This document shows, piece by piece, positions 25,771-48,800 of a stretch of DNA of 64,000 nt; position 1 is the first letter of the stretch, and each line of letters starts with the position of its first letter. The notes under the pieces are model-generated. The model saw nothing but the letters and a program-made list of their open reading frames with translations. It did not search any database and had not been told where the DNA came from. The position numbers were made by a program, and so were the translations under genes. Source of the DNA: Saccopteryx bilineata (Eukaryota > Chordata > Mammalia > Chiroptera > Emballonuridae); NCBI RefSeq assembly GCF_036850765.1, contig NC_089494.1, forward strand, positions 53,337,809 to 53,401,808, written 5' to 3'.

Positions 25771-27320
25771 TCAACACATATTTAAACTAAGAATATAAGA
25801 AGATAAAAGGATTTATCTTTATTTAAGACATCATAGTGAACAAATTTATCAATTGTACAATATGACATATTATATGACCTTGTGAACAAAGGAACAAATT
25901 CTTTTATATCTGATTATCTTAATAATAAGAAATAACATAGTTAAAAGGATTAATAATGAATCAATAAAGAATAGCTTTTGCCTTAAAGAGCATCAATATT
26001 TATACTCAGCTGATGTGTATACTTTTTCTTCTTTTCTATGTATTTCCAAATCAAAGGAATCAATAAAACAAACTTGTTTATTTTTTCTAACTTGCAAATT
26101 TCATAAACCATTAGTTTTGACTGAAAGAAACAGACCATTTATTGCCATGCGTGATAATTTGATGAAAAATGATCAAGTACTTGACACTTGCTTTTGTTGT
26201 TTGTGGTGTTCTGTCAAGCTTATGGTTACCTTGTTTTAGCGATAAAACCCACGCTGATTTAACATGGATCTGTGACAGTGATGCTTTACTCTGTTTATTT
26301 ATGTACTACTTTGATTGCTCAAGGAGCTAATTCCTTCATTCCACATTAGCCACAACCGCCAAGTCTACCAGTTAAAACAATTTCACAATTGAACATTAAT
26401 GGACTCAAAAACTTAACAGAAGCAAATATAAGCAGGATATCATAGTAACCAATGCAGTCTGAGGAAATGGTATTCTATTACAAGGTAAAATAATGTTCCA
26501 ATATAAAGGTATACACAGATTGGCTTTCCATACTTAAAATGTTTCTTAATGTAAAATGAGCTTCAAATTTCCTTGTGTCCATATTTTTCAATATTATCAT
26601 AGTACTTTTTAAATTCTGTTAATACATTTTTAAATTTTAAAAACAATAGATTATTAAGTTTCTGGGATTGTAAAGATAACATTACTTTATATAAAGCTAG
26701 TTAGTTTAGGGTTTTTAAGGTTATATATTAATTTTTAAGAGAAGCAACAGGCAAATAATAGTAAATAGGTCAATATGATTTTAGATTCATCACTAATAGA
26801 AAGGTTACCTCACCCAAAAAGCACATAGAAAACATACCTTTCATTCTCTTTTTTCTCATCTTTTTACTTATATTGATCAATCACCACTCTGCAAATCAAA
26901 TAAACATTTATTATAATGGATATCAAGCTTTCATGTCTGAGGCCAATTCTTTAACACTCAAACTTTGGGAGTTACCCTTAAATGGATTTTTAAAACTCGA
27001 AATAGCACTAAACACAGAAGAAATAATTATATTTTGTAGAGGAACTTCTTGCAGTTTCTATTCCTATAAAACTAACCACCATTCTAAAGAATTCATGTCA
27101 TCACTTTCAACAGTGTGTCACTGAATAGTAGTAACTGTTTATCAGATTAACACGTTTTAGTCTTGAGAGATAAATTCATGAACATTACAGCCACTTTAGC
27201 ATTTTTCAACATTTGACTGCACGTCAATGAAGAATACGGTAAATAGCAGAGGTAGATCCACAGATGGGCACAGAGCCCTGTGATAAATTCATGCACTCTT
27301 TTTATGTATTAGTTTGAGTA
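25771..27320. other. Long unassigned AT-rich stretch
   Basis: About 1.5 kb with no recognised gene or repeat. Open frames at 26015-26239 and 26873-27124 show no domain. Confidence 0.4.
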
Positions 27321-27334
27321 CAATTACATAAAGG

Positions 27335-27377
27335 GTAAAGCTCCAGTGGCGCAATCGGTTAGCATGTGGTACTTATT
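27335..27377 (+). pseudogene. Retroposed 5' half of tRNA-Ile(UAU), tailless
   Basis: 27340-27376 matches the first 37 nt of mammalian tRNA-Ile(UAU), as I recall that sequence, at all but three positions. All three differences are C-to-T or G-to-A changes in the D-stem/anticodon-stem GCGC segment. It covers the acceptor 5' strand, the D-arm including 'agtggcgcaatcggttagc', and the anticodon-stem 5' strand, and it stops inside the anticodon loop right after the TAT anticodon. The 3' half is absent and there is no A tail. The insert is bounded by perfect 14-bp direct repeats caattacataaagg (27321-27334 and 27378-27391). This is the structure of a tailless retropseudogene. It cannot make a tRNA because the B-box is missing. 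Confidence 0.85.
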
Positions 27378-27391
27378 CAATTACATAAAGG

Positions 27392-29157: not shown

Positions 29158-29318
29158 TACTAGAACTTCCTGTAAGGGATAAGATTTCAGAGAAGAATTT
29201 AGAGTACATTTTTAAAAAACAAAGTGTTTTAATAAAGTCTGGGAATGCTATAAAATCCATGTTGAATTAACCAAGACTGATAAAAGTTAAGATTAGTAAA
29301 AGGCTTACAAAAGTAGAC

Positions 29319-29322
<4 letters not shown>

Positions 29323-29349
<27 letters not shown>

Positions 29350-29732
29350 CCATTTTTCTGAAGCTGGAAACAGGGAGAGACAGTCAGACAGACTCCCGCA
29401 TGCGCCCGACCGGGATCCACCCGGCACGCCCACCAGGGGCGACGCTCTGCCCACCAGGGGGCGATGCTCTGCCCATCCTGGGCGTCGCCATATTGCGACC
29501 AGAGCCACTCTAGCGCCTGAGGCAGAGGCCACAGAGCCATCCCCAGCGCCCGGGCCATCTTTGCTCCAATGGAGCCTTGGCTGCGGGAGGGGAAGAGAGA
29601 GACAGAGAGGAAAGCGCGGCGGAGGGGTGGAGAAGCAAATGGGCGCTTCTCCTGTGTGCCCTGGCCGGGAATCGAACCCGGGTCCTCCGCACGCTAGGCC
29701 GACGCTCTACCGCTGAGCCAACCGGCCAGGGC
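29323..29732 (-). mobile_element. SINE-A, young full-length
   Basis: Near-consensus copy. The right end gives the head 'gccctggccggttggctcag', with A-box tggctcagcgg and B-box ggttcgattcc. The body includes two ccaccagggg(g)cga blocks (29430-29442 and 29451-29464), and a T run of about 28 marks the A tail at the left. A 7-bp duplication gactatt is at 29316-29322 and 29733-29739. Both Pol III boxes look intact, so it is one of the few copies that could in principle be transcribed. Overlapping open frames of 60-109 residues are by-products of its GC-rich body. Confidence 0.97.
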
Positions 29733-29739
29733 GACTATT

Positions 29740-31085
29740 ATTTATTGATTTGTAAGATTTCATTATAACTTTGTTTTCCAAACAATAACAATTTGGGGGC
29801 CCTTTGATGTGGAAAATTACACTCAGGCAATGGCAACTTCCAAGCATATTAACCGACTCAAGGAACAGAAAGACTCTCAGAAAAAATAAGGTGCTTGAAT
29901 TACCTGGTTTATTGAACAAATGAAAAAAACACAAGAAGAAGCCAGGACAGAGTTGAGGTTAGGTGAAGATACTCGGGATAAGGTACCAGAAGGATGGAAG
30001 GACTAACCCATCTGAATCTTGTATTGCACAACATTCATAAATCCTACCTCTCTTTCTGCCTCTCTGATCCATCAGCCTTTATGTGGTTACAAGGTACTTT
30101 GAAGAAGAGGACTCCGGGAAGAACATTACCTGGACTAACATATTCTTGTTTCATTACAGGTATTTAGAGGCAGGACCTGGCCTATTGCTATCATTTGCAC
30201 ATGACCTGCCTTGTCTTTTCTCTGCACATGTGAGGCAGAACATACATGGGACCAAAATGAGCAGCTGATTTAATGTTGATGTGCCAGCTGGTGGTGGCAT
30301 GATTTCTATTTTGTGACTTCTTCTATTTGTTTTGATTTGCAAGTAATACTCCTGTTTATTCTGTTCATTTTTATGATATATTCCATTTATGCTATCTATA
30401 GGATAGATATACATACCTTACAAGTTACTAATTCATCTTTTGTCTTATGAATTTCACTTCATCTCACAAACCAATTGCTTGCGCACTGTTTATGTGTAAT
30501 ACTTCTTCTGAGTTTCATCCATTGCATTTCTTTGTCTTGTTTTCCACATAGCAGAATTGGGTAATCATAAATAATATGAAAAATATACATGGCAGACCTA
30601 CAGGAGGAAGGGAGGGGAAAAATAGGGTAAAGGCTGGGTGCCCCCATTTCAACTTCAATTTGAATAATTACAATTTATACATTTACTATTTTATATATTC
30701 TATATGAGGTCTTGGGTGACAAATGCCTTCCAGGGGTGCTAATAAAAGAATCTTAAAGCCAGTGATGCATAAGATTATTTACTATATTATTTAACATTTA
30801 GGTTTGATAAGTAATTCCATAATGATAAACAAAATTTTAAACACATGATTGCAACATTGTTGGGTGTTTCAGAAATTGCAGATATTATATGAGCCCATTA
30901 TTTCAAACCTTGTAATATAGTCATCTACCCCTGATGAAAATGCTAGTGGTGGAAATTTGCTGAAAATCAAATTTTATATTTAAAGTGAATGATAGGTAAA
31001 TAAAAATATCATCCTAAATGAAAAATCTGTGGTTTAAATAAAGTTGCCCAATATTATGTCCATTATTTTATTCATCCATTAAACT
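29740..31085. other. Unassigned non-coding stretch
   Basis: About 1.3 kb. 29800-30290 is moderately GC-balanced, but I find no exon or known repeat. Short open frames at 30083-30268 and 30154-30414 overlap on opposite strands, as chance frames do. Confidence 0.4.
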
Positions 31086-40969: not shown

Positions 40970-41377
40970 TTTTTTTTTTTTTTTTTTTGTATTTTTCTGA
41001 AGCTGGAAACGGGGAGAGACAGTCAGACAGACTCCCGCATGCGCCTGACCGGGATCCACCTGGCATGCCCACCAGGGGGCGACGCTCTGCCCACAAGGGG
41101 GCGATGCTCTGCCCCTCGGGGGGGGGGGTCTCTCTGCCGCGACCAGAGCCACTCTAGTGCCTGGGGCAGAAGCCAAGGAGCCATCCCCAGCGCCCGGGCC
41201 ATCTTTGCTCCAATGGAGCCTCGGCTGCGGGAGGGGAAGAGAGAGACAGAGAGGAAGGAGAGGGGGAGGGGTGGAGAAGCAGATGGGTGCTTCTCCTGTG
41301 TGCCCTGGCTGGGAATCGAACCCGGGACTTCTGCATGCCAGGCCGACGCTCTACCACTGAGCAAATCGGCCAGGGCC
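40970..41377 (-). mobile_element. SINE-A, young full-length
   Basis: Head at right 'gccctggccgatttgctcag' (A-box with changes), B-box ggttcgattcc, two CTCF-like blocks (41069-41082 exact ccaccagggggcga; 41091-41104 ccacaagggggcga), a G11 run near 41120, and a T run at the left. The duplication taaattac is at 40962-40969 and 41378-41385. Several overlapping open frames of 67-141 residues derive entirely from it. Confidence 0.97.
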
Positions 41378-45249: not shown

Positions 45250-45675
45250 GTTTTTTTTGTTGTTGTTTGTTTGTTTTGTTTTTTTTTTTTCATTTTTCTG
45301 AAGCCGGAAACAGGGAGAGACAGTCAGACAGACTCCCGCATGCGCCCGACCCCGGGATCCACCCCGCACGCCCACCAGGGGCGAAGCTCTGCCCACCAGG
45401 GGGCGATGCTCTGCCCATCCTGGGCGTCGCCATGTTGCGACCAGAGCCACTCTAGCGCCTGGGGCAGAGGCCACAGAGCCATCCCCAGCGCCCGGGCCAT
45501 CCCCGCTCCAATGGAGCCTTGGCTGCAGGAGGGGAAGAGAGAGACAGAGAGGAAAGCACGGTGGAGGGGTGGAGAAGCAAATGGGCGCTTCTCCTGTGTG
45601 CCCTGGCCGGGAATCGAACCCGGGTCCTCCGCACGCTAGGCCGACGCTCTACCACTGAGCCAACCGGCCAGGGCC
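45250..45675 (-). mobile_element. SINE-A, young full-length (chimera, part 2)
   Basis: Full SINE-A. The right-end head is gccctggccggttggctcag with good A- and B-boxes, and it has the CTCF-like block ccaccagggggcga at 45393-45406. The A-rich 3' tail is interrupted by C (45250-45289 on the plus strand is T with scattered G) and runs straight into the SINE-B sequence. The right border is tacctctttccttttt at 45676-45691, the perfect partner of the repeat at 45090-45105. SINE-A and SINE-B therefore share one pair of target duplications. Confidence 0.95.
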
Positions 45676-45931: not shown

Positions 45932-46333
45932 TTTTTTTTTTTTTTTTTTTTGTATTTTTCTGAAGCTGGAAACGAGGAGAGACAGTCAGACAGACTCCCG
46001 CATGCGCCCGACCGGGATCCACCCGGCACGCCCCCCAGGGGCGAAGCTCTGCCCACCAGGGGGTGATGCTCTGCCCCTCCGGGGCGTCGCTCTGCCGCGA
46101 CCAGAGCCACTCTAGCACCTGGGGCAGAGGCCAAGGAGCCATCCCCAGCACCCGGGCCACCTTTGCTCCAATGGAGCCTTGGCTGCAGGAGGGGAAGAGA
46201 GAGACAGAGAGGAAGGAGGGGTGGGGGTGGAGAAGCAAATGGGTGCTTCTCCTATGTGCCCTGTCAGGGAATCGAACCCGGGTCCCCCACATGCCAGGCC
46301 GACGCTCTACCGCTGAGCCAACCGGCCAGGGCC
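45932..46333 (-). mobile_element. SINE-A, young full-length
   Basis: Right-end head ggccctggccggttggctcag, B-box ggttcgattcc, the variant block ccaccagggggtga at 46053-46066, and a left T run. The perfect 13-bp duplication gtggtcaattgcc is at 45919-45931 and 46334-46346. It lies only 256 bp from the chimeric SINE pair, in the same orientation. Its body differs from the 45.3-kb copy ('cctccggggcgtcgctctgccgcg' against 'catcctgggcgtcgccatgttgcg'), so the two belong to different subfamilies. Confidence 0.97.
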
Positions 46334-48373: not shown

Positions 48374-48800
48374 TTATAGAAGACCCTTTAACATTATAGA
48401 TAATACTGGTTTCATGGTGAGGAATTCCTTTAGCTTTTTCTTATCCGGAAAGCTCTTTATCTGTCCTTTGATTCTAAATAATAGCTTTGCTGAGTAGAGT
48501 AATCTTGGTTGTAGGACTTTGCATTTTATCACTTTGAATATTTTTTGCCACTCTCTTCTAGACTGCAAAGCTTCTGTTGAGAAACCAGCTGACAGTCTTA
48601 CGGGAGCTCCCTTGTAGGTAACTAAGTGCTTTTTTCTTGCTGCTTTAAAGAGTCTCTCTTTGTCTTTAACCTTTTGCATTTGAATTATGATGTGTCTTGG
48701 CGTAGTCTTCTTTGGGTTCATCTTGTTTGGTAGTCTCTGTATTTCCTGGACTTGTATGTCATTTCCATCACCAGGTTAGGAAAGTTTTCTGTCATCATTT
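48374..48800 (-). pseudogene. HAL1 ORF1 C-terminal part (L1 ORF1p-like), broken
   Basis: The 115-residue minus-strand frame 48374-48721 has the L1 ORF1p RNA-binding C-terminal signature in order: PRHIII, KVKDKERLFKAARKK, VTYKGAPVRLS, STEALQSRREW, LQPRLLYSAKL and a charged end. Immediately upstream, in another frame, come VQEIQR and ENFPNL, the expected preceding motifs, so a frameshift lies near 48721-48760. ORF1p is a trimeric nucleic-acid chaperone needed for L1 mobility. Here the reading frame is damaged and the upstream coiled-coil part is only faintly visible. It is not a functional gene. Confidence 0.9.

Follow-up and report, generated by a model that had tools for sequence, protein, structure and literature searches.

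The insert at 27335-27377 of the window (the whole 64,000-nt stretch of Saccopteryx bilineata DNA analysed here) is, with a probability that we put at roughly 0.85, an L1-made tailless retropseudogene of an unspliced, 5'-immature pre-tRNA-Ile(UAU) that carried a GTAAA leader and was primed at the start of its intron. The duplication of the target site, the missing tail, the leader and the truncation are all observed directly at the window locus, and the nature of the template is deduced from a set of sister copies of the same tRNA scattered through the genome.

Structure of the insert in the window

The first-pass annotation had described an insert of 43 bp between perfect 14-bp direct repeats, lacking an A tail and containing 37 nt similar to the first half of tRNA-Ile(UAU). 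Re-reading of the window confirmed the insert, its repeats and the missing tail (Table 1), and the similarity held against a reference comprising the published tRNA-Ile(UAU) sequence (PMC12135372) and 2 genes of the own genome. The 3 mismatches, at nt 25, 26 and 28, are all CpG transitions, supporting the earlier proposal of CpG decay after insertion; such decay fits neutral ageing, and we do not expect the insert to have a function. Allowing up to 1 mismatch, the repeated sequence CAATTACATAAAGG occurs at 2 places in the whole window, namely the 2 repeats, compared to 0.04 expected by chance, and a chance origin of the repeats was therefore rejected. For the core of the insert, GGCGCAATCGGTTAG, a search of the window with up to 2 mismatches allowed gave a single place, compared to 0.03 expected.

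Table 1. Coordinates of the tRNA-Ile(UAU)-derived insert and its flanking repeats in the window.
Feature	Position	Strand	Basis
5' copy of the 14-bp target-site duplication, CAATTACATAAAGG	27321..27334	+	perfect repeat
GTAAA, read as the 5' leader of pre-tRNA-Ile(UAU)	27335..27339	+	same 5 nt at 5 other insertions with different flanks
tRNA-Ile(UAU) exon 1, sequence nt 1-37 (to U36 in tRNA numbering)	27340..27376	+	34/37 match
T in place of the expected A37	27377..27377	+	comparison with 89 short copies
3' copy of the target-site duplication, CAATTACATAAAGG	27378..27391	+	perfect repeat; first base C

Neither ARAGORN nor Rfam calls the 37-nt piece as a tRNA, and an snR79-like Rfam match at 27140-27216 is weak (E 0.58) and was taken as chance. 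Elsewhere in the window, the region 29290-29760 contains the tRNA-like head of an apparent long SINE that ends in an A tail, with a tRNA-like call at 29657-29727, and the Rfam tRNA matches at 41309-41362, 45599-45669 and 46257-46327 likewise appear to be heads of long SINEs. L1 is represented in the window by an open ORF1 fragment on the minus strand (48374-48775; Pfam PF02994 and PF17490).

Tailless retropseudogenes are complete at the 5' end and truncated at the 3' end within a single-stranded region of the RNA, lack an A tail and are flanked by duplications of 8-35 nt (Noll 2015, PMC5322556). The published screen (PMC5322556) allows up to 20 nt between the duplication and the tRNA start of a near-complete 5' end, and the window copy has 5 nt (GTAAA) there. 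At the 3' end, the same screen (PMC5322556) asks for a truncation of at least 10 nt, a length of at least 30 nt and an identity above 69%; the window copy retains 37 nt of the tRNA, 34 of them identical. Its duplication is 14 nt long, with 100% identity and a 1-nt gap to the 3' end, the published limits being 8-35 nt, at least 70% identity and at most 15 nt, and the oligo(A) tail is absent, as the definition requires (PMC5322556). By the published screening criteria, the insert is a tailless retropseudogene, a new instance of this known insertion type. The first-pass reading of the locus as a tailless L1-type retrocopy with a target-site duplication is supported. Targets of tailless retropseudogenes follow the consensus TT/WAAAAWW and are complementary to the RNA (PMC5322556). 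The window target, GTA/CAATTA, departs from the L1 consensus and would pair with an intron starting CGA over 1-3 nt at best.

Copies of tRNA-Ile(UAU) across the genome

The insert is one of about 100 such copies in this genome. Nucleotides 1-23 of tRNA-Ile(UAU), searched at up to 1 mismatch in the own genome (2.61 Gb), matched 123 places, and the reversed control pattern matched none. The 100 distinct matches examined comprise 1 gene (L031, gene A), the long copy L066, 9 units of tandem arrays and 89 short copies, including that of the window; the other 23 places are either unlisted or array units identical in context that were collapsed by the script. A pattern from the 3' exon (34 nt, up to 3 mismatches) matched 2 places in the own genome, both of them complete genes. 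Exact tRNA-Ile(UAU) patterns had no match in the viral contig and genome contig collections.

Repeats scoring at least 8 as target-site duplications flank 85 of the 100 matches, compared to 1.3% when the right flanks were swapped between copies. Among the short copies, 76 of 89 have a duplication of their own (median 14 bp) and 13 have none at this score. The target around the start of the duplication in these 76 copies resembles TT/A(A,G)AAA, close to the L1 consensus: T occupies the 2 preceding positions in 49 and 43 copies, and the first base is A in 45 and C in 23. For 12 of the 76, an uninterrupted relative in the fetched loci spans the site obtained by joining the flanks; 10 of these relatives, paralogous sites inside repeats aligned at 77-92%, are convincing, and 2 are weak, that of L021 matching in a CA repeat only and that of L078 aligning at 74%.

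A few insertions are connected with each other. L103 and L104 have near-identical flanks, and L057 and L088 are inserted at an identical position in one repeat, of which L046 contains an uninterrupted relative, so that each pair may represent one event; the position shared by L057 and L088 could reflect either a preferred target or a single event that was carried along. In L073 (G000:C8:36790700-36792100), 7 units placed 56-58 bp apart, each consisting of a tRNA-Ile(UAU) 5' piece and the flank ACAGAGTGGGAGACACACAGA, form a tandem array, an insertion that has grown into a minisatellite. A second tandem array, L116 (G000:C9:16578300-16579100), has the same build with another flank, ACAGAATGGCACGGCGCAGGA.

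Among the 80 copies that align without gaps, 23 show no difference from gene A in the 37 nt. CpG transitions make up 89 of the 149 substitutions (71 of 114 in nt 24-37, which lie outside the search pattern). Old copies are under-counted, since the pattern permits 1 mismatch in nt 1-23.

Leaders and source genes

The 2 complete genes differ in leader and intron. The leader of gene A (C3:99430533) ends in GCGGA and its intron is CAGCAGTACATGCAGAGCA; in gene B (C11, about 60 bases before 81000551), the leader ends in GGCAGGA and the intron is CGGCAGTATGTGTGCGAGTG. The trinucleotide GGA found directly 5' of the tRNA in both genes occupies the same place in 71 of the 89 short copies. Other leaders recur as well. 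L066 and L070 carry AGCAT, known from 5' RACE as a leader of one human pre-tRNA-Ile(UAU) (PMC4839721), and the exact GTAAA leader of the window copy is found at 5 further insertions in unrelated flanks (L007, L112, L145, L147 and L148), with which we group the window copy because of this leader. The anticodon is followed by ACGA in 4 of these 5 copies and by ATGA in 1, suggesting that the intron of the GTAAA source probably began with CGA. A complete tRNA-Ile(UAU) gene with a GTAAA leader was not found in the own genome assembly; the source gene may have been lost, may have changed or may be missing from the assembly.

Intron sequence in the sister copies

The sister copies carry templated intron bases. 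Following U36, A stands at position 37 in 85 of the 89 short copies; in 80 of the 89, C, the first base of the intron, comes next. In 42 of the 76 copies with duplications, this C lies outside the duplication, and in 40 the target lacks a C at the corresponding position; the 2 counts are not independent, as each repeat was extended until the match ended. Being outside the duplication, the C of the 42 copies was copied from RNA; in about 30 others of the 76 it falls within the duplication and is uninformative, and the remaining copies end differently. Inspection by eye revealed longer stretches: L070 continues past exon 1 to CAGCAG, and L066 contains, between its repeats, the leader, exon 1, the entire 20-nt intron and exon 2 up to the T arm.

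The tRNA-Ile(UAU) copies tend to end no more than about 4 nt from the end of the exon. At the junction, 2 nt or more of the duplication agree with the gene A intron in 56 of 76 copies, compared to 15 of 228 shifted controls. In a predicted fold of the gene A precursor, the anticodon UAU, A37 and the CAGC of the intron share one 8-nt loop, although it does not stand out from the folds of shuffled sequence (23 of 200 were as good), and the ensemble contains many others.

In the window copy, the anticodon is followed by T and then by CAATTAC. T at position 37 is found in this copy alone among the 89 and is a later mutation or a copying error. The C after it, which corresponds to the first intron base in most sister copies, doubles as base 1 of the duplicated target. 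With position 37 changed and the next base shared with the target, the intron in the template of the window copy is deduced from the sisters.

The other intron-bearing tRNA that we searched gave a similar picture. With the same number of mismatches, tRNA-Tyr matched 21 places, corresponding to 6 complete genes and 15 truncated copies, all 15 with a repeat score of at least 8, the swapped-flank control having covered the tRNA-Ile(UAU) copies. Intron-like bases precede the repeat in 14 of the 15 (12 detected by script as at least 6 nt with up to 1 mismatch, and L126 and L128 recognised by eye), their ends varying along the intron; the remaining copy, L120, ends at the anticodon. In a comparison that covers these 2 tRNAs, short copies and genes number 89 and 2 for tRNA-Ile(UAU) and 15 and 6 for tRNA-Tyr. 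For the intronless tRNA-Asn, nt 1-23 at up to 1 mismatch matched a single place, L140 (G000:C4:61672462), and no complete gene, indicating that the pattern or the assembly probably misses the tRNA-Asn genes; L140 reads as a tailless tRNA-Asn copy, truncated in the T loop and abutting a direct repeat.

Proposed origin and alternative templates

In the origin that we favour, nicking by the L1 endonuclease would free a DNA 3' end, which would anneal to a short run of bases at the beginning of the tRNA intron; the predicted fold places these bases and the anticodon in one loop. From that point the L1 reverse transcriptase would extend across exon 1 and up to the 5' terminus of the leader, and a second, staggered cut would produce the 14-bp duplication. 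Internal priming in single-stranded regions is known for tailless retropseudogenes (PMC5322556). The sister set displays templated intron bases, targets near TT/A(A,G)AAA and target-intron junction matches. L1 was probably the agent of insertion; the window copy was presumably primed on the intron like its sisters, on a template RNA that was probably whole and not already cut inside the intron.

Mature tRNA carries no 5' leader, which is taken off by RNase P, and a 5' tRNA half should start at G1 and end in the anticodon loop. The first-pass annotation had left the source open between such a half, as produced under stress, and an unspliced or cleaved exon 1; our results favour the unspliced precursor and do not support the half, since the GTAAA leader has been kept and both the sister copies and the tRNA-Tyr copies contain intron bases. 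The window insert does end at position 36/37, where tRNA halves and the exon 1 released by the splicing endonuclease end, the tRNA-Tyr copy L120 (1 of 15) ends at the anticodon, and half-length tRNA pieces in L1 chimeras have been ascribed to tRNA halves (PMC13174262, 2026). Most sisters, however, carry intron bases past position 37, 42 of the 76 copies with duplications show a templated first intron base, L066 includes the whole intron, 14 of 15 tRNA-Tyr copies have intron-like bases, and GTAAA is common to the window copy and 5 other insertions. Thus, a mature tRNA cut in the anticodon loop, or the exon 1 released by the splicing endonuclease, is very unlikely to have been the template, and the copy set as a whole already contradicts it; in the case of the window copy only, an exon 1 with its leader still attached is conceivable. 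The insert is probably not the trace of a stress-cut tRNA half.

A less improbable but still unlikely alternative is that the unspliced precursor had already been broken or cleaved inside the intron and was copied from its new 3' end. Cleavage just inside the intron could yield the same ends as those of the tRNA-Ile(UAU) set, which fall within about 4 nt of the exon end. Against it speak the excess of target-intron junction matches (56 of 76 versus 15 of 228), the spread of the tRNA-Tyr ends along the intron and L066, which runs past the intron and ends in the T arm; in addition, 5S and U2 RNAs truncated at such breakpoints are reported to be absent (Noll 2015, PMC5322556). We consider it extremely improbable that the copies are a tRNA-derived SINE family or duplications at the DNA level. 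The copies are many, 2 tandem arrays of insert plus flank exist (L073 and L116), L103 and L104 have near-identical flanks, and L057 and L088 share one repeat site; yet the copies inspected have no shared body or A tail, their flanks differ, each with its own duplications, and several different leaders are represented. A tRNA-derived SINE would show the full promoter part, a common body and a tail, and the window insert stops in the anticodon loop and passes directly into the repeat. Collectively, the evidence favours the intact unspliced precursor, primed at its intron, as the template.

Implications and comparison with known insertions

The intron evidence, together with leaders for which no source gene was found, is what the present set adds to a known type of insertion. 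With it, tRNA halves and unspliced precursors, which as templates resemble each other at any single locus, become distinguishable: in intron-bearing tRNAs the base after A37 decides, and the set examined here points to the precursor. The test relies on sequence only, is applicable to any mammal and is relevant to the question of where in germ cells L1 particles encounter unspliced pre-tRNAs. Furthermore, the leaders and introns in old copies may record tRNA genes that have since changed or been lost. As a tentative extension, to which we give rather less than even odds, the approximately 100 insertions could be datable fossils of tRNA precursors that had not yet been spliced, among them those of tRNA-Ile(UAU) genes not found in the assembly (with GTAAA or AGCAT leaders and introns starting CGA or CAGCAGTATATG), and half-length tRNA inserts in other mammals, now read as halves, might often be intron-primed precursors. 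A literature search, judged by titles, recognised no report of intron-primed tRNA copies. Unprocessed tRNAs were already among the sources in Schmitz 2004, as cited in PMC5322556, and we therefore make no claim of priority.

A similar piece is located in human at chr7:44465584-44465621 (GRCh37; PMC4694795), a 38-nt 5' piece of tRNA-Ile(UAU) that ends at A37 and shares 2 of the 3 mismatches of the window copy, either by CpG coincidence or through shared history. We did not adopt orthology of the two, since the window insert is probably younger, as suggested by its perfect 14-bp repeats and by non-CpG bases that are intact. The tRNA/LINE-1 chimeric insertions similarly contain half-length 5' tRNA pieces (nt 1-37) with duplications; these are joined, mostly in antisense, to L1 and have been ascribed to halves (PMC13174262), whereas the insert described here has no L1 attached and its template appears to be the precursor. 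The tailless retropseudogenes (PMC5322556) share with our copies a target complementary to the RNA end and have unprocessed tRNAs among their named sources; in the main text of that study, introns are mentioned once, for snoRNA hosts and not for tRNAs. Unlike the cases described there (PMC5322556), the present set comprises many copies from one intron-bearing tRNA, ending mostly at intron positions +1 to +4, and the intron itself is seen in the template of sister copies.
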